From: Arabidopsis thaliana
Taxonomy: Eukaryota > Streptophyta > Magnoliopsida > Brassicales > Brassicaceae
NCBI RefSeq assembly: GCF_000001735.4
Contig: NC_003076.8
Coordinates: forward strand, 18,975,835-19,039,834
Length of the DNA: 64,000 nucleotides
Direction: 5' to 3'
A program made the translations under genes and the position numbers. The notes beneath the pieces were generated by a model. The model was not told the origin of the DNA. It worked only from the letters and a program-made list of their open reading frames with translations, and ran no database searches. Below, piece by piece: positions 15,499-51,939 of this stretch (positions within the stretch are counted from its first letter, which is position 1; every line of letters starts with the position of its first letter).

Positions 15499-17480
15499 AT
15501 GCAAACTAAGCAAATGGCTTCTCCTTGGTTGTTGATCATCATATTCTCTCTTTCATTACTTTGCTTCCATGGAAGGTCTCAAAATACTAAGGTCTGTCAC
15601 CATTTTGTAAGCACTTTGATATAAACTTAAATATATAATACAAATAAAGTTAAAAAAAATTCTCATATCTTGTAGCCTCAAGAACCTGAATACGAATGCG
15701 TTGATATCTACAAACAACCTTCGCTACAACACCCTAAACTCCAAAATCACCGAATCCAAGTATATTTCTATATATTTACATTTGTTTGTCGATTTCCTGC
15801 ACCTAATGTTTATCATGATCATATACTTATCCCTATTTGATTGATATATTTTTTGATGCATCACATAGATGAGACCGAGCGATGAAGCCTTAGCCATGCT
15901 CTCAGGAGATACATCATCAGAAAACTTATCAAACGATGAAATGGTTGCTGAGTTTGATATACCAGAAGAAGGATGTCCTCAAGGACAAGTACCAATCCAT
16001 AAACCAAGAAATAATTTCAACCACACCGAGAAACATTTTCAGCCTATTAATGGATTTGGAACTGTTGGTCAACATGTGAAGTGACTAAAATTTTATACCT
16101 TTACTATATATGATCCAAACCATTTGATGTGTATTTTTTTTTTGAAAAAACTGATGTGTATATATATACAGGCTGCGGTAATGAAGAAAATCGATGCCAC
16201 CCCGTGGCGTGGAGCATCAGCATGGATAAGTATTTACCAACCTAAATTGACAAATAAAGAGCAATTCAGCATGGCTTTCATTTGGCTCAATACTGAGTAT
16301 GAAGGCGAACGCACCAGTGCCCACTTTGGTTGGGCTGTAAGAATTTAATTTTTTGTTTTGTTTTTTTAAATCGTGATATACTAGATCAAAATTAAACCCA
16401 CTTAATGCAACCATCATTTAGCATATGTATAATTAGTTCATTTGAATAAATATCATGGTTAAAAGTTTTACTGATAACTTTTTTTTTTTACTACGTATGA
16501 AATATATTAAGGTGATTCCTGCACTATATGGCGATAGCCGTACACGACTTACTGCATACTGGAGTGTGAGTAACAATGTCACCAATTATCGTCTGTCCCT
16601 ATCACAAGAAAGTAGATTTTTTTTTTCTCTTCTTTAACCCCAAATCGTTTTTTGCAGCAAGATACATTCGAAAGCGGATGTTACAATATAAAATGTAAGG
16701 GTTTCGTTCAAATTGATAGGAGACTCTTTCTTGGAGCCGGTTTTGCGAACACCTCTGTGGTGGGAGGCCAAAATTTTAAAGCTTTTTTTGCAATCAATCA
16801 GGTATATAAGTATATATAACAACTACGTTTTTGAGTTAAACTAAATTCTTGGTTTGATATTGATTTATTCAAAACAAAAATTTGAATAAAAATAAAATTT
16901 CTCAAATATTATTAAAACAGTTCTTTAGTTTCAATTGGTTAGTAATATTCTTTAACCGATAAACTCGAAGAAAATTTTCACTAGATAAAACTAGTGAATT
17001 TCTTCACAAACTTTAGTATAATTTACCAAAAACAAATATAACCTTACACTTCTTTTTTTATGGGATCTACACAAATAATAGGATCCAAAAACAAACAATT
17101 TGCTGCTGACAGTGGGGAAGATTTACTTAGGGTATTGGCCAGAGGAACTTCTACCTTTTTTCACTGAAGGAGCGGAGTCAGTTATATATGGTGGATTGAC
17201 GAATGCTCCATCTGATGGCATTCAACCCTTTAATATAGTTAGCCCACCGATGGGTAACGGGAACAAACCGCTGGATGAGGAAGTTGATCTAAAGCATACT
17301 TGTTATATGCACTCTCTTAAATATGTGACACAAGATTACAAGAGTGTCGATGTTGATACCAACAAGGTCGCCGAAGTTGCGGACGCAGGTATATGTTACG
17401 ACGCGATTTATTTTGATAAACTTGGGGGGTATGGACAAACGTTTACCTTCGGTGGACCAGGTGGTCATTGTGATGTGTGA
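15499..17480 (+). CDS. Neprosin-domain (DUF4409/DUF239) secreted protein, 381 aa, intact copy
   Basis: Seven coding exons join cleanly: 15499-15591, 15676-15759, 15869-16075, 16172-16336, 16512-16565, 16658-16801, 17082-17480, all phase 0. The first exon encodes a signal peptide (hydrophobic LLIIIFSLSLLCF core), the next two the activation-peptide region (DUF4409; EYECVDIYKQPSLQHP, CPQGQVPIHKP), and the rest the neprosin domain (ATPWRGASAWISIYQP, GCYNIKCKGFVQ, GYWPEELLPFF, SPPMGNG, and a C-terminal GGPGGHCDV). Founding member Nepenthes neprosin is a secreted prolyl endopeptidase; activity of the Arabidopsis paralogues is mostly untested. By order At5g46810 or At5g46820. Confidence 0.85.
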
Positions 17481-17913
17481 TCTTCCTTTATGTGATACTT
17501 TGATATTTCACTTTTATTCAATAAAACAATATTTAAATTTCTAATTCCCTAGTCGATTTTGATAGCTTTATATTCTTTTACAATGTTTTTGTATAACCAA
17601 AACTCATGGACATCAAAACAAGAGATATTCGCGTGTCGCATTCTTTTAATCATCAAAACACACAGTACTAGGTTGATGAACAATTATAATTCTAAAAATC
17701 TTTTACAAGTTTTTTTGTCATTCCAACTTAAATTTGAGAAAATTGTTGTATGCATCGATTGTTTTTGTATTGTATGTTTAGACAGGCAACTACTAACTAT
17801 GCCAACCGCCAGATATCCAATGGAAAGGGTTTGAAATTGCTCGAATTTTTCTGATATTGTGTGAAAACCCTTTTCCTATTTTTTTGGCGATTAGTGTAGT
17901 AAGTACTTGCGTA

Positions 17914-18448
17914 TAATACAAAACACTACACTTCACCTATAAAAATTTAAAAACGTCTCCACCTTATGTAAAACCGAGTAACGGGTAAAACATGTCATGT
18001 ACGTACGGAAACAAAATTATATGTTGATTGGGTTCTAAATAAAATACTAAGCCATGAAATTTAAGCCTTTCATAAACTGATATTGAAGCTTCAATTGGAA
18101 TCTGTCAATCAAAGATTGTAACCATTGACAAAAACTTATAGTTTTAAAATCAGCTACCGACAACAATAAATTTGTCATTGTTGGATTCAAAATACAAGTC
18201 TGTTTTCACAATAATGTTAACTTGAGTAGTTTCTTCTTTCATTCTCAAATCTGCTATCAAAAGCCAGAGTTTTGGTAACTTTAAATAAATCGGTCAGGAC
18301 GTTAACAAATTTATTATCACTAAACGTCATTCTACTAATTATTTTTTCTTAGAAAAATCTGTTACTATATGGCAGATTTATGTCAAAAATAATGTCTGAC
18401 GCCACTAATAAAATAAATTTGTTACACATTATAATAAATCTGTTAATT
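17914..18448. other. Spacer between the neprosin duplicates
   Basis: AT-rich sequence absent from the duplicate; no gene seen. The stretch 18280-18450 has repeated A/T-rich words ('aaatttgtta', 'aaatctgtta') that may be a decayed insertion. Confidence 0.4.
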
Positions 18449-18634
18449 CCTAACAAAGCAATAGGTATTTTAGGTATGAAAATAACTCAATTAACTTTTA
18501 TATTTTCTGAATTAGTTTACTAATTAAACCCTCACAATAATAAAAATATTACTATATTGGGTCAACATAGTTTTTTCCCAAAACAATACTATGAATGGGG
18601 TTAAGATAGGAAAGATAATATGGCATCAAAATGA

Positions 18635-18728
18635 AGACTTTATACCAAAATATTTAAAGATTTTATACCAAAATATTTAAAGATTTTATACCAAAATATT
18701 TTTAAAGATTTTATACCAAAATATTTAA
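18635..18728 (+). repeat. Minisatellite, about 4 x 23 bp
   Basis: About four tandem copies of a unit reading TTTATACCAAAATATTTAAAG with small length changes. The corresponding place upstream of copy 1 (about 15370-15400) has a single diverged unit, so the array grew after the duplication. Confidence 0.8.
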
Positions 18729-18841
18729 TAGTTAATATTATTAAGTAAATTACCTTATAATTAAGAATTTTCAAATGACTACCTTCCCTATATATACATT
18801 GCCTCCGCCTCTGTTATTACCAACGGCTGAACATAGAAAAT

Positions 18842-20838
18842 ATGCAAACTAAGCAAATGACTTCTCCTTGGTTGTTGATCATCATATTCTCTCTTTCATT
18901 ACCTTGCTTCCATGGAAGGTCTCAAAATACTAAGGTCTGTCACCATTTTGTAAATATAAACTTAACTATACAATATATACAACTTAAGTTCTAAAATTCT
19001 CATATATTGTAGCCTCAAGAACCTGAGTACGAATGCGTTGATATCTACAAACAACCTTCGCTACAACACCCTAAACTCCAAAATCACCAAATCCAAGTAT
19101 ATTTCTATATATTTACATTTGTGTGTCGATTTTCTCCACCTAATGTTTATCATGATCATATAATTATCCCTATTTAATCGATATATTTTTTGATACATCA
19201 CATAGATGAGACCGAGCGACGAAGTTCTAGCCATGCTATCAGGAGATACATCAGCAAACGATGAAATGGTTGCTGAGTTTGATATACCAGAAGAAGGATG
19301 TCCTCAAGGACAAGTACCAATCCATAAACCAAGAAATCTCAACCACACCGAGAAACCTTTAAGCCTATTAATGGATATGGAACTGTTGGTCAACATGTAA
19401 AGTGACTAAAATTTTATACCTTTACTATATATGATCCAAACCATTTGATGTGTATATTTATAACATATTGTATATATATACAGGCTGCAGTAATGAAGAA
19501 AATCGATGCCACCCCATGGCGTGGAGCATCTGCATGGTTTAGTATTTACCAACCTAAATTGACAAATAAAGACCAATTTAGCATGAGTTTTATGTGGCTC
19601 AATACTGAGTATAATGGCGAACGCACCAATGCCCAGTTTGGTTGGGCTGTAAGAATTTTATTTGCTTTACTCGTGATATACTTGATCAAAGATAAACCCA
19701 CTTAGTGCAACCAGCTTTTAGCATATGCAATTAGTTCATTCGAATAAATATCATGGTTTAAATTTTTTACTAATAACCTTTTCTTATATGTATGAATATT
19801 AAGGTGATTCCTGCATTATATGGCGATGACCGTACAAGACTTACGGCATACTGGAGTGTGAGTTACAATATCACTATGTCTTGTCTATCTCTATTACAAT
19901 AAAGTTGGTTTTATTTTTATTTTTGTGTTCTTCCTGGTACGTATCTATATGAGTTTCTCTTCTTTAACCGCAAATCGTTTTGCAGCCGGATAAAATCGAA
20001 AACGGATGTTACAATATACAATGTAAAGGCTTCGTTCAAACTGACCATAGAGTCGCTCTTGGTACCGGTTTTTCGAACACCTCTGTGGTGGGAGGCAACC
20101 AATATAAAGCTTTCTTTGCAATCAGTCAGGTATATACAACTACGTTTTTGAGTTAAATTAAATCCTCGGTTTGATATTGATTCATCGTGAGCTGGTTTTT
20201 AAGAAAACTATATATGGATGGTCATTGTTCAATATGGATAATTTCATCTACTCTTAAATTAGTGAGAAAATTCAAGAAAAAGTTGATTAAACCTTACTTT
20301 TTCTCCAATATTTTATATATTAAAACCAGTTCTTTAGTTTCAATTCGGTTAGTATTACTTCCCAAACTTGAAGTAAAATTTACCAAAAATAAGAAACTTA
20401 CATTTTTTTTTATTTTTTTTGGGATTGATACAAATATAGGATCCAAAAACAAAGAATTTGTGGCTGACAGTCCAGAAGATTAACATAGGGTATTGGCCAG
20501 AGGAACTTCTACCTTTTTTCAATGATGGAGCGGAGTCAGTTATATATGGTGGATTCACGAATGCTCCATCTGATAACATTCAACTCTTTGAAATAGTTAG
20601 CCCACCTATGGGTAACGGGAACAAACCGCTGGATGAGGAAGTGGATCTAAAACATACTTGTTATATGCACTCTCTTAAGTATGTGACACCAGATTACAAG
20701 AGTGTCGATGTTGATTCCAACAAGGTCGCCGAAGTTGCGGACGCAGGTATATGTTACGACGCGATTTATTTTGATAAACTTGGGCGGTATGGACAAACGT
20801 TTACCTTCGGTGGACCAGGTGGTTATTGTGATGTTTGA
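18842..20838 (+). pseudogene. Neprosin-domain gene copy 2, frameshifted in exon 3
   Basis: The exon pattern matches copy 1: 18842-18934, 19013-19096, 19206-19396, 19484-19648, 19804-19857, 19986-20129, 20440-20838. Six exons keep their lengths and reading frame. Exon 3 is 191 instead of 207 bp: two in-frame losses (12 and 3 bp) plus one single-base loss just after the HTEK codons, so splicing as in copy 1 runs into a stop soon after. All splice sites and the neprosin domain are otherwise preserved (WPEELLPFF, GGPGGYCDV), so this is a recent lesion, an accession-specific allele, or a gene using a different exon-3 splice or downstream start. Confidence 0.7.
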
Positions 20839-23800
20839 TCTTCCTTTATGTAAGACTTTGATATTTCTCTTTTATTCAATAAAAGATATTTATATTCCTA
20901 ATTCCCTAATCGATTTTGATAGCTTTATATTCTTTTACAATGTTTTTCTATAACCAAAACTCATGGACATCAAAACAAGAGATATTCGCATGTGGCCTTC
21001 TTTTATTCGCAAGGGTTGATGAACAATTATAATTCTAAAAATCTTTTACAAGCTTTTTTTTTGTCACTCCATCTATAATTTGGAAAAATTGTTGTATGCA
21101 TCGATTTTTTTTTGTACAAACAAACTATATTGTATGTTTAGACGAACAACTACTTACTATGCCAACCGCCAGATATCCAATGGAAAGAGTTTAAAATTGC
21201 TCGAATTTTTTCTGGTATGGTGAGAAAACCCTTTTCCTAAAAATTTTTGGCGGTTAGTGTAGCAAGTACTTGCGTATATAATTTAGAAACTATATTTCCT
21301 AAACTGTTTACATGCGAACTTTCATCTCTCTTTGATTCCATCGCCTAAGAAGTAACCACATTTTATTTTATTAGTAGCGATATAACATATAGTGTCGTCT
21401 GTCTAACTCGTTTTATTAAACACCGATAATAACTTTAGACGGACTTGTAAACGACTGATATAGAAAACATTCAAATGGATGATTTCTGTGTCAAGAATTT
21501 TTTGAACACTTCTATAAAAGCGAAATTACAGTCACTTTAAAATTGCATATTGTGTTTTCGTGTAACAAGAATTGCACAATGTTATTAAATTGGTTATCAG
21601 GTTTTTAACCCAAAACAATTGTCGTAATCAGTGGAAACTAAGTTATATGGACAGTAGAATAGTGGGCCAGTGGGGACAACAGATATAAAAATGTTGCAAT
21701 AATCAATTAAATGATTGTGTCCTTTCTGTATCTGACATCTTCTTTTGTGGATGACAATTTCATCACGTGCGTTGTTGGTTTTCGAAATCTAAAATAAGAC
21801 GACGATTTTACAAAGCTGCGAATAAAATAAAATATGTTTTGACATGTTCAATAAATCGAAAATATTGTTAAATCAAGACAGGGAATAACATATATTCTCT
21901 TATATATCACAAAAAATTAAACAAAATTGGCCAAACATGGCTGACAAATTTTGTAGCCAAATATAGAAAAATGTTGATATATAAAAAGGCGAGTAACCTT
22001 TTGATTCTTTAACCTATATCTAAAGGCTTTTTATGTGCTATTATAAACTAATTTTTAAAAATCTTATATATTGAACAAAAATTCCAAAAAGCCTTAACAA
22101 GAGAGATGAGGCGATGGAGACAAGTTTATTTGTGTGGTGGTTGTTAAGAATATGTGGTTAGAGTTTAGATTATAGAGTTTAGGATCGAAAAAATATATGG
22201 CTAGTGATAGATCAAAAATAATTTTGGTCATTTAACAATGAAAAAAGTGAACTATAGTTTTCAGAAAACTACATGTGAAACTTTTAAGAACTTGTTGAAG
22301 TTCTCAAACATTTGTAAGTGTCGAGAAAGTTGGAGAAAAGTTTCAGAAACTGTTTCGTACATTAAATTAAGGGACGTGTTGCATTAGCATTTTAGCGTTC
22401 AATTAACCTTATGAGTTATAACATAGTAGCTAGATAGCTGTGAATACATGGACAAATGTTATCTCATGTCATTGTATAAGAAATAATGTTCTTGTTGTAA
22501 CTCACACCGTCAGCCACACCACATCGGCACCTCTCTTCCTCTCTTTCTATGTTCCTCCTACACTAAGTGCCTTGCTCTCGAAGGTCGACATTTTTTGTCC
22601 AAAAATACAAAAAATGTTTCTAAATAGAAAATAATGAGGCATTGTTGGGGGAAAGTAAATTATTGTAAAGAGAAATATATAGAACAAGCAAAAGCTGATG
22701 TCTTGGGGCTCAACTTTTAAATCTGCAACTTTTTAATATGTTTTTGAAAGAAAATCAGTTGTATAGCTGTTAATTGTTTTAAGAGTTAAGATTTATTTTA
22801 ATTTAAAAGAAATGTGAAATTAGTTAAAAATTATATATTGAAGGTCTTCCTTTTTTTTTTTGTAAACCTATTTATTGAAGGTCTAAAAAAGTATGTTTAT
22901 CAACAAATTTTATAATGCCCCAAAAATTCTCAGGACAGCCAATCACACTTACTGCTGACAGCAATAATACAAAAAATTTGTGAAATCCCATAACCTATCA
23001 ATTTATCACCCACTACAAATGTTAGCCATCCAATACTCTGGGCAATGTTATCTGCCATATGACAACATCTTGGGGGCCATAAGTGAATAGTGATGAAACA
23101 AAACACAGTAACAAATAATAAAATAAAATAATGATGGTGAAGTGTCGTTGAAGAGAAAGAGATATACTATAGTGACCGCGTTATAGAAGAGGTGTCGTTG
23201 GAAGTTTGAGCCATGATTGCGGTGATTCTTTTCAATAGTACGCTACGCGCAACAATTCATTTCACTGGTTGCGACTCCTTTTAATAGTAGCAACGACTCT
23301 CTTTTTTAATCGCCAAAAATAGTCTACGTAATCTAATTCTTTGCCGAATTGGGACTTTTTGTAGGTTACTATTCTAATAAATAATTAATTATAATGAAAT
23401 AATTACATTTAACTGGAAAGATTTATTTTGAAATAATAATTTTAATAAAATCAACTTCATTTTGGTGATTATTTAGTTATTAAGTTAAAATTATAGTTTT
23501 TTTCCTTGCACTATTTTTCTATTTTAAAACAATTGTATTATATATATAGGAATTTGTAATCGGATACGTCTGTTTGAATATAGTAAAGACTTCTTCTTCT
23601 TCTTCTATTTTTTTGCACTGATCCAGTGACCATTTTAACTCTTTAATTTTTAGTCTCCACGTTAGAGAGTCGGACACCTTTTCATGGAAGGCAACACATG
23701 TTTAATCACTTGCTACACTCAAGAAAAGTTCATATTAATTTTATAACGTAACCAAAATTATAATTTTACTAATTTAATAAATCCGCGTAAGATTACAAAT

Positions 23801-37961: not shown

Positions 37962-38540
37962 CTTCTTCGCGAAACCTCTTTTTTTCCTGGAAAAATTGGA
38001 TCTACAAAAAGATTGAGAAATTGGTTATCGGAGTTTTCTCTAATCTCTGAGAAAAAAAAAACGAAGGTCAAGGCGTGGATCGTGGAGACAGATAGACGAA
38101 GATTGAAAAGCGTTTTCGAAAAAATCCCAAACTGATTTTAATTGAGAAGAAAAAGCTGAGATAAAGTTGTTTCCTTTTTGATCCTTTTATTTCTATATAT
38201 TTAGTAACCTCTCCTCGTTTCTGTTTTTCTTGCCAAATTAAACAATTGGTTTGGTTTATTGAGATTTTGGTTTGGGTCAGTTTGTTTTTATTTTTGATTT
38301 GATTCAGTTTTAGTTAATAAACAATAATTTTTAGTTAGTTTATATATTAATATGATTATATTTTTTCTCAATATGTGTAAATAGTTAAAATGTAAAGTTT
38401 TAATAAAACATTTATTTGGTTTGGTTTAGTTCAGATACAATCAAATCAGTTTATATAAGATTCCACTACGGTTTAAACAGTTCAATTTGGTTCGGTGCCC
38501 TTAGTTTAACTATTTTAGGTGAAAGTTTAATAATGAAAAG
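37962..38540. other. Intergenic; SYP22 leader and promoter
   Basis: Contains the SYP22 5' UTR and AT-rich promoter. From about 38467 the sequence belongs to a segment duplicated at 45897-46545. No gene seen. Confidence 0.5.
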
Positions 38541-39214
38541 TAGGTCTGGGCACGAAGCGAATATTCGGAAAAATTGTGATATTTGTTATTCGATTCGTTT
38601 TAACCGAATACTTGATTTTATGATTTGCTTTGATTCGAAACTTTCCGGATATCCGGAATTTCGAATATCCGGATTTTTTTGTGATATTTGCGGATATCCG
38701 CTTTGATACGTATAAATATTTTAAAAAAATATATAAACTATATAACCATATCAGATATTCAAAGTTTTTATTTAACATGCTTTCAAAATAAGTTCTAAAT
38801 ACCAAATATAACCTTTGTTGTTATCACCGGTCAACAAAAATGTTATCAAACTAATTCCAAAAACTAAAACTCGATAGTTTTTGATGTCATTGATCAAAAC
38901 ATAACATAAAAAAAAATATCAAACAAACATCTTAACATAAAAACATAAGGTAGCAACAATACACAAACTATTTATGATATCTATATATAGATATAACTAT
39001 ATATTCTAATATATATCAAAAGATACGGATCGAAGCGGATATTTGATTTTTTAAAAAACAATATTTGCTATTTGATTCGGTTTTTACGAATACTACATTT
39101 TCCTATTTGCTTTGGTCCAAAATCTTACGGAAATTCGGATTTTTCGAATCAAATCAAATCGAATACCGAATCGAAGCGGATCGATCGAATATTTTGCCCA
39201 GCCCTAATGGAAAG
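38533..39214. mobile_element. Non-autonomous hAT-type DNA transposon
   Basis: The element is 38541-39206 (666 bp). Its ends TAGGTCTGGGCA and the complement of TAGGGCTGGGCA form 12-bp terminal inverted repeats with one mismatch. It is flanked by 8-bp repeats ATGAAAAG and ATGGAAAG (one mismatch), the length made by hAT transposases. The interior is AT-rich with many short palindromic words (GGATATCCG, AAGCGGATAT) near both ends, as expected of subterminal transposase sites. No transposase. A paralogous segment at about 46040-46065 lacks the insertion. Confidence 0.88.
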
Positions 39215-39309
39215 TGTTAATGTAATTACTTTATCAGCATTTTTTTCGCAAGATTTCCAATGATGAGGTTATTAAACTTTACTACATGTGAAAAGCAGAA
39301 ACGGTTTTG

Positions 39310-39318
39310 GACACGTGG
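39310..39318 (+). promoter_or_regulatory. G-box (ACACGTGG) upstream of the BPA1-like gene
   Basis: CACGTG at 39312-39317 about 335 bp before the ATG, in a block (GGACACGTGGACGACAGAT) conserved in the duplicated promoter at 46115-46133. A candidate site for bZIP/bHLH factors. Confidence 0.5.
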
Positions 39319-39651
39319 ACGACAGATAGTGGTTGATAATGTGATTATGTCACGTCTTTTGTTTTGTTTTAAACGTAAGTACTATATGATTAAAATTTAA
39401 TTAGAATCTTTCCCGACAAAGAAATAGCTAAGCACGACCTTTTTCTTCCTTGAAGTCGCCGGCGAGACAAAAAAAAAAAAACATAATCCCGACGGTTACA
39501 CGTACCGGAGAATTGTATTTAAATTGAATCCGCTTTGTATTTTCCTCACAGCCAAAGATTTTTCCTTACTAGGATTTTCATTTTCTCTTCTGTTTTCGTT
39601 TCAAATTCAGAAAATCTTCCGTTTCAATCCGGTTTATATCGGTTTTTAGCA

Positions 39652-41156
39652 ATGTCGGTGAGTACTCCTTCATATCCGATTAATCGTTCTCGTCTCGTAT
39701 TTGTAGAATTTCGATCACCAGCTGCGATTAGATATGTTGAAATTGGCGTTTAGAATCACTAATTTTGGGTTTTACCTTCTTATGGATTACTTGTTTGATA
39801 AATGTGATTAGTATTTATCTAATTAGTTAAAACTTTGTGAATTTATTTTTGGACACAGCTTCTTATATGTATAACTTTTAAGTTAATCAGAACTTAACCA
39901 ATTCGTTAACTTTAGGAGTAAGGGGTTTAACACTTTTGTGCTCTCTGTTTTCAAATTCATGTCAGTCTGAACATTGTTAATGACACAACTGGTAACTGTT
40001 AATAGACGTCTGAACGTTTTTCTTCATTGCAGATGGTAACTGTCAAAGTTAGCAACGTTTCTCTTGAAGCAACAGAAAGAGATCTCAAGGAGTTCTTCTC
40101 TTTTTCCGGCGATATTGCTTACCTCGAGACTCAAAGGTCAGTTTTTTCGACTTACATTTTCATCTGAATTATGTTCTTACCGATTCCTAAAACTTTCCGA
40201 GTTGGTTTCTACAGCGAGAATGATGGTTCTAAATTAGCATATGTCACATTCAAGGATTTACAAGGAGCTGAAACCGCAGTTCTCCTCACCGTACGTAAAT
40301 TCACTTTTTCTTAACCTTAATTCAATGAGTCATATTGCAATGCTTTGTTTTAATGTCTATTTTGTTTCAGGGATCGACGATTGTTGATTCATCGGTCACA
40401 GTTACAATGTCACCAGATTACCAACTACCTCCTGATGCTTTAGCTTCCATTGTAAGCTCCTTATAAACCATTTCTTTAACCTCAAAACTCTCTTTAAGAA
40501 TCACTGTGTGTAATCATAACATTTTGTCTCCTTAGGAATCATTGAAAGAGAGCAATAAATCATCATCTCCTACGCGAGAAGATGTATCGGTATTTAGAAA
40601 AGCTGAAGATGTTGTAAGTGGTATGATTTCAAAAGGGTTTGTTTTAGGTAAAGACGCTATAGCTAAAGCGAAGAGTCTTGATGAGAAGCATCAGTTGACA
40701 TCAACAGCTTCAGCTAGAGTTACATCTTTCGACAAAAGAATCGGATTCACGGAGAAAATCAACACCGGGACTACAGTTGTGAGCGAAAAAGTTAAAGAAG
40801 TTGATCAGAAGTTTCAAGTCACAGAGAAAACAAAATCAGCAATAGCTGCTGCTGAGCAGACAGTGAGCAATGCTGGTTCTGCTATAATGAAAAACCGGTA
40901 TGTTTTAACCGGTGCCACGTGGGTTACGGGTGCGTTTAACAGAGTGAGTAAAGCTGCTGAAGAAGTTGGACAAAAGGCGAAAGAGAAAGTTGGTTTGGCT
41001 GAGGAAGAAGAAGAAGAGAAGAAGAAAGTGGTTGATGAAGTTGCTATAGTTCATCTGACTGAATCACCAAAGGCTTTAGACCAATCAGAACAAGATTCAA
41101 AACTCCCTGAATCAAAATCACAGCCACACAAGGAGCTTAACGCAAGTGTTGTTTGA
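39652..41156 (+). CDS. BPL6: BPA1-like RRM protein (295 aa)
   Basis: One N-terminal RRM and a helical Lys/Glu/Ala-rich C-terminal half. Related to BPA1, the binding partner of the ceramide-phosphate transfer protein ACD11, a regulator of ROS-linked cell death. Exon 1 encodes only Met-Ser (39652-39657); then 40033-40136, 40215-40290, 40371-40451, 40536-41156. The RRM spans about residues 4-75 (VTVKVSNVSLEATERDLKEFF; AYVTFKD). The C-terminus has repeated amphipathic segments with KAKSLDEKHQ, VKEVDQKFQ and VGQKAKEKVGLAEEE, and ends KELNASVV. The tiny first exon is confirmed by frame and by its preservation in the duplicate at 46451. By order At5g46870; symbol BPL6 from memory. Confidence 0.9.
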
Positions 41157-42266
41157 GCTCAACCTTGAGATACGTATAAGGAACTTTCTCCAAACGTTTT
41201 TTGGAACAATGAAGCTGACTCTTTAGGACAGGGCTTATATGTTCCAAATACATTGTATTGAAAATCTTCTTTTGTTGTTGTTGTTATTTATGTCTTCTTT
41301 CTTCTTGTTGTTTCTCCCTTACACAAATTTGGAAGAATGTTTAAACTGAATCTCTATTTTTGAACATTTCCTCTTCTTTGGATAATATTTCAGTTTTGAT
41401 GACAAATATTTTGAAATGAAAACAACAGAAGATTTTATGAAAATTTAATTATTCTGCTTAAAATACTCAAAACCTACGAGATTTTGATTGGTACCTAGTA
41501 TAATTGTAGACCAACAATTCAACATGATGTGATCAATTATATATATATAATAAAAAAAAATCATGATTTATGTTTAGCTATTTTGTATGATATTGTAAGT
41601 TTTTATTTATTTAAAGATATTGTCAGTTTATTGACTTAACTTTAAAAGAAATTTATGAATTAAGTTATCCTTTGATTTTTTGCAGTTTGATCAAGTTTAC
41701 TGAGTCATTTCTCAACTTTATTAGATGTTCAGAAACCAGAATGCAAATCAACCTAAAATTAATATTCCAAATTCCAAAAGCTAGATAAAGATGACAAGAT
41801 GATGCGGATAAGTGAAAACGATTCGTGGAAAACTACAAAGAAATAAATTTCGTTAACTAATGGTATATTACTGATTCCAACGTTGACTGTAAATTAGATT
41901 CTGTATATTCGAATTACAAAGTTTATCCACAAGATGACAAAAGAAAAAGTTTCCACTATGATTATATTCGAATGTCTTTATGTCTAAACGCCATCTTATG
42001 AATAAATTACAGTCAGTTTGACACATACACACACCAAAAAAAAGAATAATAAATTATAGATGTGGTGGTTATAAAGATAAATTCAACAAAGTTGACCAAC
42101 AAAAGAAGAAAAGAACAAATATTCTTCAACCAAAAATAAATAACTTTCCATGAAATCATCTTGAATTTTGTATTATAAATTAGTGAACCATCTTTGATTC
42201 ACCTAGTAACTCAAAACAAACTTGTGGTGTAACGTTTCACAAAACAAGGAGAAAAAGAAAAGAAAA
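41157..42266. other. Intergenic between BPA1-like gene and first DEFL gene
   Basis: 3' UTR of the RRM gene (to about 41400), then AT-rich sequence that serves as promoter of the DEFL gene at 42267. This stretch and the RRM gene body are what the second copy of the block lacks. Confidence 0.5.
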
Positions 42267-42609
42267 ATGAAGACCTCAGCTTTCTTCATCGCTGTATTGC
42301 TCATTCTATCATGTAAGTAATCTCAAATCAATATTTTTTTATAACAAGTTTCAATTTAAACATGCATGTGCACGTATATATATTTGATAGATGTTACATA
42401 TATATGATATTTGAATAGGCTCATCATCAATGATAATGGGAGTTAGCTATCATGAGAACCGTTGCCATGACTGGGTAGATTGTGCTATATGGTGCAAACA
42501 ATGGGTTCCTCAACCAAAATGTATTAACCGTGTTTGCGATTGTAAGCCAAAATCTCTTCCGACCAACGACGAGATTCCCAAATCGGCTTCTTCCAGTTCG
42601 AAGAACTAA
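42267..42609 (+). CDS. Defensin-like protein, type A copy 1 (78 aa)
   Basis: Two exons, 42267-42312 and 42419-42609, with the intron inside a Cys codon right after the signal peptide (phase 1), the standard layout of plant DEFL genes. The signal peptide is MKTSAFFIAVLLILSC. The mature part has six cysteines, C-x5-C-x3-C-x8-C-x4-C-x1-C (from RCHDWVDCAIWC to VCDC), compatible with a cysteine-stabilised alpha-beta fold, followed by a Ser/Lys-rich tail. Secreted cysteine-rich peptides of this class often act in reproduction or defence; no role can be assigned here. By order At5g46871. Its closest relative is at 46549. Confidence 0.85.
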
Positions 42610-42786
42610 AATATGATTATGACTCTATGTATCCATGAGATATATTATCTAGTTCATCAATAAAGTTATAGTTCTTATGTGAGTATGCTAATGAATGATA
42701 GAAACAGCGATGACGTTGTGGTGAATTTGTTCTTATTTTCTTTTTGCTAAGTCGTTGGTAACTTGCGAGAAAATTAATTATACTGA

Positions 42787-43731
42787 CTAGATGAGTACCC
42801 GCATTACGTGCGGGTTTATGTATAACTATTTACAAATTGTTTTATATAATGTCTGTTCATATAAAATAAAGTTGAATGCATCGGTTTTGAAACATAAATA
42901 TGATTTGTAACTGTTTTTGAAAAGTCTAACTATATTAGTTCATCTGAAAAACGAATGTGTTTGAGTTGTTTTTTATTGTTTTTTTTTTCCAACCACACAT
43001 TAATTAAAAAGTAATATCTCCATGATCGGTTACCCAATTAGGAGGAATAGAGTATACAAAAGTAATTTCAGAAATTAAAATTTTATTGTTGTTTTAGATT
43101 CTCAATTTTTTTTTTAATTTTATATATCCTTGTTTTTTTGGTTATATGTTTAGATTGTGAGAGGGTGAAATTTTAGAAAATTTTCTTCTTACGCTAAAAA
43201 TATAACATGTCTTTATTAACCATGTCTCTGCATATTCAATCTAAACATATTTAACTTGATGTTCTTGGAAAGTTTAGTTAAGTTCTTGTCATAATCTTAT
43301 ATCTTACGTATTAGTTATAAGGATAACTCCTCAAAGATCTTTTAAATTACTTGTTTTCTTAGCATAAATCTCAAAAAGCTTAGATATATTTAATCTGCAT
43401 ATTCATTTAGTTTCTTTCATAATAATCGTCTAATTTTTAGGATTTCATAATAATCGTCTAATTTTTAGGCAAAGAATATGTGTAGCATGTTTGGATTTTA
43501 TGATCATTTTAGCCACTTAAGTGGATCTCAAAATGAAAGAGGATATATTAAATTAAAAAATATAGAAAGAGAGATGGTTCAAGTTCTGATTAATTATATC
43601 CTCCTATTTAAATTGTATGTTGAATTAATTACTATTTATATATTATTTATTTTATGAAATCTAGGTGGCAAGCTCTCATGTGCTGATGTGTCAAATTGTG
43701 GGAGAGAGTTAGCCTTCTTTCATATATATGA
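42787..43731 (-). mobile_element. Non-autonomous Helitron
   Basis: On the minus strand the element starts with TC (complement at 43730-43731), followed by ATATATATGAAAGAAGGC and TAACTCTCTCCCAC, which resembles ATREP-type Helitron 5' ends. It ends CTAG (complement at 42787-42790), preceded by a hairpin of CCCGCA/TGCGGG at 42798-42814. It sits between host A and T, with no target duplication, as Helitrons do. It is 945 bp and shows no Rep/helicase. The paralogous place in the second copy (about 47058-47075) lacks it. Confidence 0.85.
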
Positions 43732-45121
43732 TTACTGCACATAGTTGTTACCTAGTGATATTTTTTTTATTTTTTAAAAAACTTTAAATTTCCGTTACCC
43801 AGTGATATTTTAAAGATGGTTTGTATAAATGGTTGGTAATTATTAACGAAACTAGCGATGATTGATATATTCAATGGTTTTATGAAACATGTTTTCAATA
43901 TATGATATCGGTATTTCAGTGACGAATTGGGCTTTCACAAATCTGTTGCTAATCCAATATCACATTTTCGTCGATTTGTAATATGATCACGAATACATCG
44001 CTAAAAGTCATCACTAGGCCATCCCATAATTTGTACAAATCTTTGTAAATAGGTAAAGGGTGGAAATGGGAGAAATATCTCAACAACATAAAATCCTTAC
44101 AAATTCTTTATGAATCTATAACGAAAAATAAATTTACAAATGTCTTTCAACAATGATATATAAGGATATCGACAATCGATACACATGCACAAAGATTCAA
44201 AGAGTGGTGACGAAGAAATTTAAAGATCTATTTCAAGAACTCATGTATCGCATCACGAACCAACCATTGATTCATGACACAGTTAAATTTGTATGCCCAT
44301 GTACATGAATTTAAAGTTATCAAAACTATTTTGAGACATATATATATAGCATACGGTATTAACACAATAATTCATATTTGATTTTTTTATATAAAGAATT
44401 TTATTATAAATGTAGGATAGTAGTAGTACTCCAATTATTATTAACATATATGTGAGTCAGAGAATGTTTTCCACCAATATATATATGAGTTCTTTTCATC
44501 AATTTAGCTTTGGTCAGAGAATATGTTTCAACCAACGGATACTTTTGCATTTCATGAAACAAACAACAATACATTCTAGTGAACTACTACCCAAGAAACC
44601 AACGTAGATGTCAATATTTTATAAGATATTTGAACACTGCAAACACCTAACTATTTTCAATTCTTTGACTTCATAGAAAGATTCAGCCAATCTAGTACAT
44701 ATAAATCATCAAAGGTAATATGTTTCAAAAGAGAAAAATTTGATAATATAAAATATATTAACAATTATTTAATATGTACACAGTCCGTATAATTTCATGT
44801 AAACTCTCTATGATTATATCACAATCATAAAATAATAAAATATAATTAAGTGGGTGATTGGTTCAGTTGTATTTGTAAAATTGGGGATGCATAGATATAT
44901 TAAATATAGCAGTAGATTTTATTGTTATATATTTTTAGATGTAAAAATTTAATTTGGTCTTTCAGTTTTATTTTTTTGGTAGGAGTCTTTTAATTTTTGT
45001 TTAAAGTATGTAAGAAAAAACATTTACATATATCCCATCCTGTCAACCCTTAAGGTTAAATCTAAGTCTTGAATGCATGCATATATTTCAATGGGTTATT
45101 ACTTATATAATTCAAAATGTG
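43732..45121. other. Spacer in the first DEFL duplication unit
   Basis: AT-rich, non-coding, and largely alignable with 47070-48060 in the second unit (for example the GGTGACGAAGAAATTTAAAG word at 44207 and 47123). No gene seen. Confidence 0.55.
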
Positions 45122-45330
45122 ATTTTTTTATCGGCATCACATTAAAAATGCAGTCTATGATTATAAATAATAGAGGATATGAAATCAAAACATCTTAGTA
45201 ACAAAAACCTTTGTATGCCTAGTGATCTCATTAGTATTCTTAGAAAAGAAAGAGAATATATCCTACTATATAAGTCATTTGGATTTTTCATTAAAACCCA
45301 TGTAATCATACAAATTATCTTCATATACTC
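45122..45330 (+). promoter_or_regulatory. Core promoter region of DEFL type B copy 1
   Basis: This roughly 200-bp segment ends with a TATA box (CTATATAAG near 45267-45275) about 100 bp before the ATG. It is the single-copy equivalent of the five-fold tandem array upstream of the second type B gene. The leader then contains a GA microsatellite (45343-45370). Confidence 0.7.
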
Positions 45331-45370
45331 ACACACTAAATACAAAAGAGAGAGAGAGAGAGAAAGAGAG

Positions 45371-45695
45371 ATGAAATCAAACAAAGCAACCTTCTTCTTG
45401 GGCTTGTTGCTTGTATATGCTTTTTGTAAGTTCTTCGCTCGTATACAAATATATGATTTGTTCATTATACATATGTCAATATACTGAAATTGTTTTCCTT
45501 TTTAATTATTTTGTTTGGATACCTTTTTTTTAAGGTATAATGTTGATAGAGAGTAGGTGTTACACAAACGACGATTGCAAAGACGGGCAACCATGTCCAG
45601 TGCCTCTTGCTTGTCTATTTGGCAGCTGCATTTGTCCATGGAAAAGTCAATCAAAATTACCAATTTGTCAAATCATATGTGCGAATTTGGATTAA
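45371..45695 (+). CDS. Defensin-like protein, type B copy 1 (71 aa, shortened C-terminus)
   Basis: Two exons, 45371-45425 and 45535-45695, intron phase 1 after the signal peptide MKSNKATFFLGLLLVYAFC. The mature part has eight cysteines (CYTNDDCKDGQPC, ACLFGSCIC, ICQIIC). The frame closes after ANLD, about 16 codons earlier than the paralogue at 50061, so the last conserved cysteines (PCGC) are missing, although the matching DNA is still recognisable downstream. It may be a shortened functional form or an early stage of decay. By order At5g46873. Confidence 0.7.
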
Positions 45696-45896
45696 AAAAA
45701 CTGTAAATTCTTATGATCCTTGTGGTTGCAACTATAAGTAAAATAAAAATATAATAAAATAAAAATAATATAATTATTTAAAATATTATTCTCATTTCTT
45801 TTTTAAATCTCATGGATATTCTCAGTTAAAAATATTAAATTCTGATTATTTTTTTTTGTAACATCTACACTCAAATTAGTTTTTATTGAAATTAGA
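45696..45896. other. Junction region between the two duplication units
   Basis: AT-rich 3' flank of the type B gene; the next unit's homology to the RRM-gene upstream region begins near 45897. The tandem duplication breakpoint should lie within this stretch. Confidence 0.45.
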
Positions 45897-46545
45897 TAAC
45901 GGTTTAAATATTTCAATTTGGTTCAATACCCTTATATGTTTCCGGTTAGAGTTTTTTTGTCCTCACCTTTTTAACTAATTTTAATGTTACGGTCTTATGG
46001 GAAGGTCATAATTTAACTATTTATAAATGATGGGGTGAAAGTTTAATAATGAGAATGTTAATTTCTTTATCAGCATTTCTCACAAGAATGATGAGGTTAC
46101 TATGTAACGGTTTCGGACACGTGGACGACAGATAGTGGTGGAAAAAGTGATTATGTCACGTCTTTGATACCAAAAAAACGTAAAGTATAGAATTACTTTA
46201 ATCATAATCTTTCCCGACAAAGAAATAGCTCTAAGCACGACCTTTTTCTCCCTTGAAGTCGCCGTCTAGACCAAAACAAACAAACAAAAAAACAATCCCG
46301 ACGGTTACACGTACCGGAGAGTTGTATTTAAATTGAATCCGGTTTTTATTTTCCTCGCATCCAAAAACATTTACTTATCTGGATTTTTTTTTGTTATCTT
46401 CTGTTTTCGTTTCAAATTGTAAAGAGAAAAACTTCCGTTACATACATGCAATGTCGGTGAGTTTTCATTCATACCCAATTCTTCGTTCTCGTCTCGAATT
46501 TGTAGAATTTCGATCACCTGTTGCGAAAATATATGTTGAAATTAA
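45897..46545 (+). repeat. Duplicated 5' region of the BPA1-like gene (promoter, leader, exon 1, part of intron 1)
   Basis: Aligns with 38467-38540 plus 39207-39745. It retains the G-box block (CACGTG near 46119), the CCCGACGGTTACACGTACCG block, the leader, the Met-Ser exon ATGTCG with its GTGAG donor (46451-46461) and about 85 bp of intron 1. Homology stops at about 46543, six bases before the DEFL ATG. The hAT element present in the original is absent. Confidence 0.9.
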
Positions 46546-46548
46546 ACC

Positions 46549-46865
46549 ATGAAGATCTTAGCTTTCTTCATTTTCGTGTTGCTAATTTTTTCATGTAAAT
46601 AATCTCAAATTAATCTTATTTCTATAAAATTTCGATGAAACATGCATGTGAAGGTATATATATATGAATAGGTTCATCATCAATGATAATGGGAGTTCAC
46701 TATCATGAGTACCGTTGCCATGACTGGGTAGATTGTGCTATATGGTGCAAACAATGGGTTCCTCAACCAAAATGTATTAACCGTGTTTGCGATTGTAAGC
46801 CAAAATCTCTTCCGACCAACGAGGAGGTTCCTCAATCAGCTTATTCTTCCAATTCGAATTACTAA
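46549..46865 (+). CDS. Defensin-like protein, type A copy 2 (79 aa), under a transplanted promoter
   Basis: Two exons, 46549-46594 and 46672-46865, phase-1 intron after MKILAFFIFVLLIFSC. The mature part is nearly identical to copy 1 from DWVDCAIWCKQWVPQPK through CKPKSLPTN, including all six cysteines; the tail differs (YSSNSNY). Unlike copy 1, the sequence directly upstream is the duplicated promoter and first coding exon of the BPA1-like RRM gene. Expression is therefore expected to differ from copy 1. A transcript started at the RRM site could use the donor at 46457 and the DEFL exon 2 acceptor (AG at 46670-46671). By order At5g46874. Confidence 0.85.
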
Positions 46866-48060
46866 AATATGATTATGATTCTATGTATCTATGAGATATT
46901 CTCGAGTTAAACTTCAATATGAAAAGGTATTATAATGACGTCCATCAATAAAGTTATATGTAGTTCTTATGTGAATAAGCCAATGAATGATGGAACAATG
47001 ATGACGTTGTGATGATTTTTTTTCTTTTCTTTTTGATATGTAGTTGGTAACTTGCGAGAAAAAAAATAAATTATCTGCACATCGTCGTTACGTACCTAGC
47101 GATAGTTCAAAGACCCAATGAGTGGTGACGAAGAAATTTAAAGATATATTGCAATAATTAATGTATTGTATCACGAATCAACCATTGATTATTTATTGAC
47201 ACATTTACATATATGTACCTGAATTCAAAATTTTAGTTTAGTCAAAATTATTTTGAGACATATATATATATATACTGAGCATAAGGTTTAAAGTTTAAAC
47301 ACAAGAATCCATATTTGATTTTCGTATATAAAGAATTTTATTATAAATATTGATTAGTAGTAGTATTCTAGTTGTGAACATATGACTACTTTGGTTTGGA
47401 GAATATGTTTGAAGACATGATAACTTCTGCATGTCATGAAACAATATCATTTTGTGAACTACTATCCAAGAACCAACGTAGATGCCAAAATTTTAACCAC
47501 GATGCGGTGAGTTAGTGGTTCTAGTCTGGTGGTGTAGGTCAATGAACAATTCTCTCTAGACGCAGAACTGTTCAGCTTTACCTCTTTGACCACATGGATA
47601 TAGGCTCATTGCTTATGGTCCATTTAAAAATTTGGGAAACCGTACCTGGAGATAGCCTAACTAATTTAGTATACATATATATAATTTATAGTAAAAAAAA
47701 TTCAAAAGAGAAAATTTAAATAATACAAAATCTATTAATATGTACTTAGTTCATATATAATTTCATGTAAACTTTCTATGATTATATCACAATCATAAAC
47801 CAATCAAATATAAGTAAGTGGGTGATTGGTTCGGTTAATTTTGGATGTAGATGTGTTGGATGTACATGTACCCGTAGATCTTATTGCTATAAATATTTGG
47901 TTGTAAAATTATAATTTGGTCTTTTGAAAGTTTTTTGGTATGTAGAAAATATTTACGTATATCCCAACCAATCAACCCTTAAAAGTTAAAATCTAATTCT
48001 TGAATGCATGTATATTAATTGGTAATTACTTATATTACTCAAATTACTTATATAAGACAT
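46866..48060. other. Spacer in the second DEFL duplication unit
   Basis: Aligns with 42610-45121 of the first unit minus the Helitron. It has an extra segment of about 150-170 bp at roughly 47500-47665 that is not in the first unit. No gene seen. Confidence 0.55.
47500..47665. mobile_element. Short insertion of unknown type, specific to the second unit
   Basis: Between otherwise aligned flanks (AACCAACGTAGATG on the left, CAAAAGAGAAAA on the right) lie about 160 bp of G/C-richer sequence, including GTGGTTCTAGTCTGG and CTTTACCTCTTTGACCAC. It may be a short interspersed element, but I see no clean box B, tail or target duplication. Confidence 0.35.
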
Positions 48061-50030
48061 TTTTTTATTGGCAACACACTAAAAATGCAATCTATGATAA
48101 AAGAGGATATGAAATCAAAACAGTTTAATAACAAAAACCTTTTGTATGCCTAGTGATCTAATTAGTATTCTTAGAAAAGAATGAGACTATATCCTAGTAT
48201 ATAAGTCATATGGATTTTTCATTTAAAACCCATGTAATACAAATTACCTTCATATGTTTTTTTAATTGGCAATACACTAAAAATGCAATCTATGATAATG
48301 AATAATAGAGGATATGAAATCAAAACAATTTTATAAGAAAAACATTTGTATGCCTAGTGATCTAATTAATATTTTTAGATTCGAATGTGTGTAAAGTGTG
48401 TAAAGGAGGAACAAAGTCTATCATTCATATTCTTCGGGACTGCCCGACCATAGCTAGAGTGTGGAATAGATTAATCCCTGTGAGGAAGAGACATGCGTTC
48501 TTCTCTAAGTCCCTATAAGAATGAATGTATGAGAATTTAACCGAGGGAGGGATGATTGATGAGATTCCATGGTCTACACTGTTTACTATGACAGTCTGGT
48601 GAGGATGGAAGTGGAGATGTGGTAATGTTTTTGGGGAGGATAAAAAATATCGAGACAGACTATGGTTCATCAGAGATTTGGCTAAAGAGGTATCGTTGGC
48701 TATTTCTGCGAGTGAAGAACCATGCTCTAAGAGGTCTCATGTGGAAAACATGGTAGGCTGGGAGCCTCCACATGTTGGATGGATGAAGTTGAATACAGAT
48801 AGTGCTTCTCATGGCAACCCTGGGCCTACCATGGCGGGTGGGGTTCTACAAGACAGCAAGGGAAGATGGTGTGATGGTTTCGATGTTCATATAGGTAGAT
48901 GTTCGGCTCCTTTGGCAGAACTATGGGGTGTATACTATGGTCTATTTGTTGCCTAGGAGTATAGAGTGTCACATGTAATGTTGGAGGTGGACTCGGAATT
49001 GGTAGGTGGTTTTCTTAAGACAAGGACTGATGATTCACATATGATGTCCTCCTGGTACGCTTGTGTCATGACTTTATTGGAAAGGACTGGTCAGTCCGTA
49101 TTTCTCACGTGTATAGGGAAGTTAATCGTCTCGTAGATAGATTGAGTAACTATATATTTTTATTTGTCTTTAGGTTTTCATTCTTTTAGTTTTCTTCCTA
49201 CTACTTTAGATTTGATTTTGAGGGAGAATATATACACCCGAGACAAATTCTTATGTAGTTTCTGTTAGTTTTACTTTAATAAATTCTGGGAGACATTGTT
49301 TCTCTGTCACCCACCAAAAAAAAGAAAAAAAAAGAAAAAATCTATACTACTATATAAGTTCTATGGATTTTTTCATTTAAAACCCATGTAATACAAATTA
49401 CCTTCATATGTTTTTTATTGGCAATACACTAAAAATGCAATCTATGATGATAAAGAATAGAGGATATGACATCAAAACATTTTAATAACAAAAACCTTTG
49501 TATGCCTAGTGATCTGATTAGTATTCTTAGAAAAGAAAGAGAAATATATCCTACTATATAAGTCATATGGATTTTTCATTTCAAATCCATGTAATATTTA
49601 TTACCTTCATATGTTTTTTTGTATTGGCAACACACTAAAATGCAATCTATGATAATGGATAATAAAGGATATGAAATCAAAACATTTTAATAACAAAAAC
49701 CTTTGTATGCCTAGTAATCTATTTAGTATTCTTAGAAAAGAAAGAGAAATATATCCTACTATATAAGTCATATGAATTTTTCATTTCAAATCCATATAAT
49801 ACAAATTACCTTCATAAATATATTCTTTTGTATTGGCAACACACTAAAATTGCAATCTATGATAATGGATAATAGATGGTATGAAATCAAAATATTTTAA
49901 TAACAAAAACCTTTGTATGCCTAGTGATCTGATTAGTATTCTTAGAAAAGAAAGAGAAATATATCCTACTATATAAGTCATGTGGATTTTTCATTTAAAA
50001 TCCATGTGATACAAATTAATTTCATACTCA
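48061..50030 (+). repeat. Tandem array of about five 200-bp promoter-derived units
   Basis: Units start at about 48061, 48258 (interrupted), 49410, 49613 and 49823. Each has the same order of words: TTGGCAACACACTAAAAATG, GCAATCTATGATAATG, GAGGATATGAAATCAAAACA, AACCTTTGTATGCCTAGTG, ATCCTACTATATAAGTCATA, and TTCATTTCAAATCCATGTAA. The single equivalent at 45122-45330 is the promoter of the first type B gene, so the array is amplified promoter and each unit carries a TATA motif. The second unit is split by the LINE fragment at 48378-49340. The last unit runs straight into the type B gene at 50061. Confidence 0.88.
48378..49340 (+). mobile_element. 5'-truncated LINE (non-LTR retrotransposon) 3' end
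   Basis: Translation shows the zinc-binding tail that follows plant LINE reverse transcriptases (CKVCKGGTKSIIHILRDCP, then ARVWNRLIP) and then an RNase H domain (GWMKLNTDSASHGNPGP; AGGVLQDSKGRW; APLAELWGVYYGL; MLEVDSELV). It ends in an A-rich tail near 49315-49340. Several in-frame stops (for example within 48400-48660 and at 48954-48956) make it inactive. The insertion split one unit of the promoter array, so it arrived after or during the array's growth. Confidence 0.88.
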
Positions 50031-50060
50031 CAGACACAAAAATCAAGGAGAGAGAGAGAG

Positions 50061-50435
50061 ATGAAATCAAACAAAGTAACATTTTTCTTGGGCTTGTTCC
50101 TTGTATCTGCCTTTTGTAAGTTCTTCGCTCGTATACAAATATATGATTTGTTCATTATACATATGTTAATATATACTAAAATTTGTTTACCTTTTAAATT
50201 ATTTTGTTTGGATACTTATTTTGAAGGTGTTAGGTTGACAGAGAATATGTGTTTCAAAGACGACGATTGCATAAACCAGGGGGAATGGTGTCCAGTGCTT
50301 CGTGTTTGTTCATATGCAGAATGCATTTGTCCATGGGGAACTCGATCAAAGTTACCAAGTTGTCAAATCATATGTGCGCATTTAGATAAAAAATCTGTCA
50401 ATTCTTATAATCCTTGTGGTTGCAACTATAAGTGA
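50061..50435 (+). CDS. Defensin-like protein, type B copy 2 (87 aa)
   Basis: Exons 50061-50115 and 50227-50435, phase-1 intron after MKSNKVTFFLGLFLVSAFC. The mature part has ten cysteines (CFKDDDC, EWC, VC, ECIC, SCQIIC, and a terminal PCGCNYK). It is the full-length form; the paralogue at 45371 lacks the last two cysteines. The 111-bp intron is divisible by three and free of stops, so a transcript that keeps it would also be open (124 codons). The upstream region is the five-unit promoter array, and a GA repeat immediately precedes the ATG. By order At5g46877. Confidence 0.85.
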   Translation: MKSNKVTFFLGLFLVSAFCKFFARIQIYDLFIIHMLIYTKICLPFKLFCLDTYFEGVRLTENMCFKDDDCINQGEWCPVLRVCSYAECICPWGTRSKLPSCQIICAHLDKKSVNSYNPCGCNYK

Positions 50436-50590
50436 AATAAAAAAAAATATAATAACAAGAAAATGATTCATTAAATTAAAAGTTTATTTTCGTGTCTTTT
50501 TAAAAATTTCATGGACATAAATTTTCCTTAATCTTAATATTTTAAAGTCAGACTATTATATTCTAACGTTTAAAATATAAGTACAAAATG

Positions 50591-51939
50591 GGAAAAACGG
50601 TCTATTTCCCCACGAGAAGTATCACATCATGCCAGATAGAACACAAACTTTGACCTCAGTCTATATATCTATGAATTGATAGTTATACTCTTATTTCCCC
50701 CTGAAAGGAAAGTTTCATAGCTATATGTCCCCGAATAAATAGTTCAAGATCCATAACCCCACGGAACTGGGTTTAGTCGGTTTACTCTATATCTTACCGA
50801 TTGATAAACCAACTAAACCTAATTATAACCAGACTTAACCGTAATTCAGCCGTTTTTAACCCGATTTCAGTTCTATAACCCCATAAAAAATTCCCAAATT
50901 GAAAATATTAAAACCCCCCAAAATCGACGAACCCTAGAGAGAAAAGAGATTTGGTGGATAATATGTCGTTGATGTTCTGTAATGGTTAGATTGAGTTTGG
51001 AAATGTTGGGTTGCGAATTGTTTTTATCGAACAAATTGAAGTATGAGTGGTGGGGTTCCTTTTCAGCCATGGTGTGAGAAAGAAGAAGACGATTTTCAAT
51101 ATCCAAAAAACACATTAATACCCACTAAATTGTTACAGGAAAGAAGAGAAGTGACGACTTGTTGCAGGAAAAATGAGTGGTGATGTGGCAAAACTCTCAC
51201 GTGACAAAAAATCTTGTGTTTTCCTTTTTTCTAAATGCTTTCCTTTTACTATAATGGCAATTGTTGTTAGCTTCTCATTCATTCATGAACACGTTAAGAG
51301 TTTTATCTCTCTTTTCTCAATTCTGTGAAACTTGGTTTTTATATCAATAATTTGCTAGAGCTATTTCTTCTTTCAAGCTCTTTCGATTGATATCTGAATT
51401 GTTACTTGCATAAAACAATACACAGTTTTATAAAGAAGAGACAAACGTCTTAAAAAAAAGTCGAGCTTACTGTCACATAAGCATCATCACCACCATTGAA
51501 GCAAAAAACAAAGCTTGGAAACAGAGAATTTCACAATGATTGAAACAGAGATATCTAACACTACCCATCGGATGAATTGAGTGCGTGTGTATGTCCATGA
51601 GTTTATTTATGATTTTCACGTAAATATATGGGTGGAATTAACATGTTTTGTCTTGTTCTCTTTGGGGATTTTGAATTTTAGGGTTTAAACGCATATTGGG
51701 TCGGGTTCAATAAGCAATCAGTTTTTTTTTGGTTTAGTTACTATCAATAGATGGTTTGGTCTCGGGTTTATGCATCAAACCGACTAAATCCAGATTTGGG
51801 GACATTTAGCTATGGAACTTTCGTTTCAAGGGGAAATAGGAATATAACTATCATTTCATGGATATATACACTGAGGTTAAAGTTTGAGCTCTATCTGGCA
51901 TGATATGATACTTCTCGTGGAGAAATAGACCGTTTAGGC
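50591..51939. mobile_element. Non-autonomous DNA element with long inverted arms
   Basis: Left arm from about 50595 (AAACGGTCTATTTCCCCACG, then GAAGTATCACATCATGCCAG) is matched in inverted form by the right arm ending near 51935. Similarity runs about 190 bp inward (the GTTTAGTCGGTTT word lies in both arms), then fades. I cannot fix a target duplication, so the exact ends are uncertain by about 5 bp. Long arms and no coding capacity suggest a Mutator-like non-autonomous element. Confidence 0.7.

Follow-up and report, generated by a model that had tools for sequence, protein, structure and literature searches.

A defensin-like (DEFL) gene of Arabidopsis thaliana lies directly behind the promoter, leader, first exon and splice donor of a neighboring RRM gene, and judged from the alignments this promoter capture is real at the DNA level. 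We propose that the two genes were fused by a duplication followed by a deletion, and our judgment is evenly balanced on whether the outcome is a secreted peptide that is weakly made, re-spliced or absent, rather than one that is simply re-deployed. Simple re-deployment of the secreted peptide would be less likely because of the captured start codon and of a shift in the relative strength of the splice donors.

The 64-kb window that was analyzed, the whole stretch C5:18975835-19039834, carries in this order a syntaxin gene, the RRM gene, a DEFL cluster and a homeobox-like gene, the last read by eye on open reading frames. The syntaxin and RRM identities are backed by Pfam, with RRM_1 at E 8.5e-7 on an RRM protein spliced by eye. 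From its position and gene order we take the locus to lie near AT5G46870 on A. thaliana chromosome 5, and "BPA1-like" is the name that we presume for the RRM gene. AT5G46870 is named as an RRM protein in the part of PMC1479338 that mentions it. The features used below are the following.

38437..45840, + strand: tandem unit copy 1 (RRM gene, DEFL-A, DEFL-B), from colinear matches to 45845-50530; outer limits approximate
39309..39360, + strand: original G-box block of the RRM (BPA1-like) promoter, common to the chromosome 4 place L003
39652..41156, + strand: RRM coding region; exon 1 (Met-Ser) 39652-39657, intron 1 from 39658
42267..42609, + strand: DEFL-A, the paralogue that is not fused, with exon 1 at 42267-42312, donor GTAAGT, and exon 2 running from 42419 to the stop
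45845..50530, + strand: tandem unit copy 2, without the RRM body, from colinear matches; outer limits approximate
46106..46450, + strand: captured RRM promoter and leader; G-box block 46115-46166, TATA-like TATTTAAAT at 46325
46446..46460, + strand: short uORF (MQCR and stop), with an ATG that the RRM leader lacks
46451..46456, + strand: captured RRM exon 1 (ATG TCG), from alignment to the RRM gene
46451..46552, + strand: 33-codon uORF opened by the captured ATG when the donor is unused; its TGA overlaps the DEFL ATG
46457..46543, + strand: captured 5' part of RRM intron 1, 87 bp, starting with donor GTGAGT; third uATG at 46533
46544..46548, + strand: junction residue AAACC, with no confident alignment to either parent
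46549..46594, + strand: DEFL exon 1 of the fused gene (ATG and most of the signal peptide), from alignment to DEFL-A
46595..46671, + strand: DEFL intron of the fused gene, donor GTAAAT (GTAAGT in DEFL-A)
46672..46865, + strand: DEFL exon 2 of the fused gene, with six mature cysteines, around the 112-bp run identical to DEFL-A

Self-BLAST of the window yields a same-strand chain whose order is kept, pairing 39300-39744 with 46106-46543, the DEFL-A stretch 42267-42773 with 46549-47062, 44190-44431 with 47108-47368, 44517-44621 with 47399-47495, 44724-45326 with 47701-48255 and 45124-45819 with 49826-50518. The order was checked on hand-entered coordinates together with two more left-hand blocks, and the chain leaves out further self-BLAST matches among the repeated units in 48040-50026. 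Since the matching blocks are colinear on the same strand, their most likely origin is a head-to-tail duplication of a ~7.4-kb unit that spans the RRM gene, DEFL-A and DEFL-B. In the compared stretches outside the DEFL-A coding sequence, K2P ranges from 0.14 to 0.32 and non-coding stretches differ by 12-26%, the DEFL-B stretch (K2P 0.162) including coding sequence and the intron stretch ending two bases early. At a substitution rate of ~7e-9 per site per year, these K2P values would suggest, roughly, a duplication about 10 My old or older.

The RRM sequence from the upstream region into intron 1 (39300-39744) matches 46106-46543 on the same strand with 79.6% identity over 460 columns (E 2e-111), and the slightly longer pair 39300-39746/46106-46545 is 83.5% identical over 425 gap-free sites, with K2P 0.186. 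The ATG-TCG exon and the donor GTGAGT at 46457 are exactly kept in the fused copy. RRM homology ends at 46543, AAACC follows, and the DEFL ATG stands at 46549; copy 1 holds 2520 bases at 39747-42266 between the two fused segments, and about 2.5 kb is missing in copy 2. A search with the 117 bases that precede the DEFL-A ATG gave no match at the fused locus. At the sequence level the gene is thus chimeric, with its 5' regulatory part from one gene and its coding part from another. The initial annotation had described this structure (duplication of the RRM upstream region, leader, Met-Ser exon, donor and part of intron 1, deletion of the RRM body, and fusion six bases upstream of the DEFL ATG), and the match at 46106-46543, the homology break and the colinear blocks agree with it on each point. 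Its start of the captured segment at 45897 is a fair approximation, the leftward homology being weak and interrupted and fading, by eye on the alignments, at about 45845-45950.

We propose the following course of events. The unit [RRM gene - DEFL-A - DEFL-B] would have been duplicated in tandem long ago, and copy 2 would then have lost about 2.5 kb, namely RRM exons 2 onward, the 3' region and the DEFL promoter. The loss would have brought the DEFL gene up against an RRM segment that includes promoter, leader, ATG-TCG mini-exon and donor and ends 87 bp into intron 1. Transcription would start about 30 bp past the conserved TATTTAAAT, and ribosomes would meet the captured ATG before that of the DEFL. 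Splicing would favor the captured donor at the expense of the decayed DEFL one, so that 46456 is linked to 46672 and the exon for the signal peptide is left out. Secreted peptide would form a small share of the output, needing both an unused captured donor and ribosomes that leak past the uATGs.

The first owner of the promoter can be told from an outgroup. A genome search with a 445-bp RRM query gave three matches among the best candidates scored, namely the query itself, the fused locus and C4:9864861-9864960; the captured stretch as query gave the fused locus, the RRM copy and C4:9864907-9864960, the chromosome 4 match having E 1.7e-7 with the captured copy and 9.2e-8 with the RRM copy. The chromosome 4 place lies between a syntaxin gene (Pfam) and an apparent RRM paralogue (read by eye) and is taken to be the AT4G17730/AT4G17720 gene pair. 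Because this syntaxin/RRM intergenic region has the same G-box block, the promoter is, on the outgroup comparison, originally the RRM gene's, and the ancestral promoter owner of the chimera is known from the upstream block on chromosome 4. In this 52-base block, which contains GGACACGTGGA and GTGATTATGTCACG and was picked because it aligned, 41 of the 52 sites are identical across the RRM, captured and chromosome 4 copies; the captured copy alone differs at 0 sites, the RRM copy alone at 2 and the chromosome 4 copy alone at 7, while at 2 sites all differ and the change is unassignable. The captured block (46115-46166), with no changes of its own, decays no faster than the parental RRM block, and the G-box that the initial annotation had noted in the RRM-gene promoter is retained in it. 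As proof of constraint on this promoter, the clustering of differences is weak, the controls clustering too: runs of at least 15 give p 0.024 for the captured stretch and 0.16, 0.42 and 0.44 for three control stretches, the longest-run test gives p 0.027 and 0.10, 0.16 and 0.013 (the DEFL-B control being more extreme), and a variance measure is significant in all four stretches.

The DEFL open reading frame of the fused gene is intact, with no stop or frameshift, and has overall dN 0.105 and dS 0.303 relative to DEFL-A. DEFLs are grouped by cysteine motif, a Pfam match being supporting rather than defining, and the gene has a signal-peptide exon (read by eye) and a six-cysteine mature exon ending in C-x-C. 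The Pfam matches of the DEFLs lie below their cut-offs (best Nodulin_late, 22.9 bits vs 30.4), and the best phmmer hit has E 0.0055. The fold model, a helix with strands, is weak (mean pLDDT 61), and none of its 31 PDB matches reaches E 0.001 (best E 2.3); they are mostly six-Cys scorpion peptides, with some plant defensins.

Across the core RCHDWV...LPTN, none of the 36 codons differs between the two DEFLs, with 0 changes at 20.3 synonymous sites, and dS is 0.44 before the core and 1.52 after it, on few sites (18.0 and 8.8). The longest identical run in 20000 shuffles was 106, as against the 112 bp shared with DEFL-A, but this test also responds to protein constraint. The absence of change at the core silent sites has p about 0.02 given the pooled non-coding divergence of 0.175, a value that is too favorable because the core was delimited after the identity was seen. 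Later gene conversion from DEFL-A may explain part of this near-identity, for which the evidence is suggestive; the literature searched yielded no report of gene conversion within DEFL clusters. Signal-peptide exon 1 has 5 synonymous and 5 replacement changes (dS 0.78, dN 0.16 over 15 codons), a pattern hinting that the exon remained of use during some of its past. The view that the mature peptide is nearly unchanged stands for the identical core, but a peptide unchanged under new regulation need not follow, given the uORFs and the donor decay. Because both DEFLs carry the 112-base run, their signals may be confused with each other in array or short-read data.

Scanned from 46340, the fused leader contains three ATGs ahead of the DEFL ATG, at 46446, 46451 and 46533, one of which is in the context GCAATGT, the same as that of the RRM gene's own ATG; the DEFL ATG has A at -3. 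The captured ATG at 46451 opens MSVSFHSYPILRSRLEFVEFRSPVAKIYVEIKP with its stop TGA at 46550-46552, and the frame opened at 46533 runs beyond the DEFL ATG. Selection on the 33-codon peptide was considered and rejected, because its 16 differences from the RRM intron, over 32 codons, number 3, 8 and 5 at first, second and third codon positions and so show no excess at the third, though the frame is open in both copies. The peptide has no Pfam match at E 0.1, and the frame looks like non-coding sequence read by accident.

The captured donor GTGAGT forms a U1 duplex of -9.4 kcal/mol, the best of the 19 GTs in 46340-46671; this value is reached by 0.4% of the 3452 + strand GTs in the window, and among 14 donors chosen by eye in the RRM, DEFL and chromosome 4 genes one scores higher. 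The DEFL donor of the fused gene, GTAAAT, scores -1.7, the corresponding donor of DEFL-A, GTAAGT, scoring -7.1. It ranks seventh among the 19 GTs and is weaker than all 14 eye-picked donors, and 57% of the 3452 GTs score -1.7 or better. By this measure, U1 pairing being only one part of splice choice, the fused gene's own DEFL donor is decayed relative to that of DEFL-A. Donors of the GTAAAT type do function in plants. A cryptic acceptor leaving the DEFL ATG in the transcript was rejected, the AGs between the captured donor and this ATG giving introns of 5 and 49 nt only. Because no AG before the DEFL ATG allows an intron longer than 49 nt, the captured donor would most easily reach the acceptor at 46671. 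The predicted join 46456/46672 reads ATGTCG + GTTCATCATCAATGA and would encode MSVHHQ and a stop, overlapped by an ATG in frame with MIMGVHYHEYRC..., the predicted mature peptide without a signal sequence. This junction had been correctly placed in the initial annotation; it shifts the frame read from the captured ATG, and a DEFL Met in frame follows it.

These splice and start signals also bear on whether the capture was productive, as the initial annotation had proposed, giving the DEFL a new expression pattern with a normal secreted peptide made by leaky scanning and use of its own intron. The intact frame and signal peptide, the conserved TATA-like box and G-box block, and the A at -3 of the DEFL ATG are all consistent with such an outcome, which we regard as possible but on the unlikely side, since three uATGs stand ahead, one in the RRM-ATG context, and a strong captured donor faces a decayed DEFL donor. 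The same donors allow a capture that reached past the promoter to splicing, in which the captured one took over exon 2 and the native one later decayed, yielding a signal-less intracellular peptide (MIMGVHYHEYRC...) by re-initiation at the AUGA overlap behind the six-codon uORF. This is quite improbable in our view; if true, one local deletion would have turned a secreted defensin into a broadly expressed cytosolic peptide.

It is unlikely that the fused gene is a dead by-product, with little or no useful transcription, adrift, its mature peptide overwritten by gene conversion from DEFL-A. Such a history would fit the 112-bp identical run, the unchanged silent core sites and the donor decay, but the core was chosen post hoc and protein constraint could produce much of the run. 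The available text of PMC5731061 also reports fewer recombination events in DEFLs than in NLRs, few in number and mostly in A. lyrata, the frame has no stop or frameshift, and none of the 52 sites of the G-box block changed in the captured copy alone (2 unassignable). Very doubtful, finally, is an absence of capture, with DEFL transcripts that begin past the captured stretch or a promoter part that arrived otherwise (e.g., by a separate template insertion), given that the 117 bases before the DEFL-A ATG are unmatched at the fused locus and that the colinearity of the whole unit favors duplication plus deletion. We prefer a duplication-deletion fusion whose secreted product may well be impaired.

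DEFL genes had been presumed to be usually tissue-restricted, and on this the accessible part of PMC3601123 points in both directions: it gives 234 DEFL and MEG genes detected, 210 of them in reproductive tissues and about 43 in all tissues examined. AT5G46871, which from its order after AT5G46870 is probably DEFL-A, is among the genes with evidence of an ETI response in that same part, and appears without comment in a table of PMC7074130, as far as its text extends. The DEFL lineage may predate the Brassica juncea split, because a B. juncea A09 gene is labeled AT5G46871 in the relevant portion of a published table. In the open-licence main texts searched, At5g46872, At5g46873, At5g46874 and At5g46877 were not found, nor was a print record of this fusion. 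PMC3049755 counts 54 lineage-specific genes of possible chimeric origin, with no At5g46 locus in the portion of its main text consulted.

Chimeric structures arising from tandem duplication are a known kind, of which the fused DEFL is a good local example. Tomato DEFL1, a partner in a related case, is defensin-like. At tomato SUN, a Rider-mediated copy sits in a DEFL1 intron, and its high expression is thought to be due to the DEFL1 promoter (PMC7072075, in part); there, as here, a duplicated gene gains the promoter of another, DEFL1 being one partner. Unlike at SUN, where the DEFL is the promoter donor and the move was by retrotransposon, the Arabidopsis DEFL receives, by local duplication and deletion; SUN has a known fruit-shape effect, whereas the Arabidopsis fusion is known from its sequence. 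In Drosophila yakuba, tandem duplication likewise gives chimeric structures and shuffled regulatory elements, according to the consulted part of PMC5460883; those cases come from a population sample with RNA-seq, whereas ours is a single, older plant case (K about 0.19) at the DNA level. Table 1 of PMC4222868, a source seen in part, lists AT4G17730/AT4G17720 with a putative bidirectional promoter containing at least two G-boxes. This presumed pair shares its G-box block with the captured stretch; unlike it, the fused copy has the 3' end of DEFL-B in place of the syntaxin side. Giver, receiver, unfused paralogue and outgroup are all at hand in a model plant, so it can be tested directly whether a gene that captures a promoter is re-deployed or becomes trapped by start and splice signals not its own.

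Other features of the window were noted. The RRM gene's own promoter contains, at 38541-39206, a non-autonomous element that we presume to be hAT-like, with ends TAGGTCTGGGCA / TGCCCAGCCCTA and an 8-bp flanking repeat ATGAAAAG / ATGGAAAG; since copy 2 has no such element at the matching place, the insertion probably followed the tandem duplication. A genome search with it gave at least 47 matches including itself, with at least 13 other near-full copies at 85% identity or more. Before the second DEFL-B, in 48040-50026, the stretch upstream of DEFL-B is repeated several times; these copies are interrupted by a segment at about 48380-49330 whose reverse-transcriptase-like match, RVT_3, only just reaches its cut-off. 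The window further contains an inverted repeat, 50595-50736 / 51794-51935 (89% identity over 142 bp), a direct duplication, 15177-17915 / 18437-21278 (82-88% identity, in three pieces), and, in 4324-5658, a ~240-bp repeat in direct and inverted copies with 85-92% identity.
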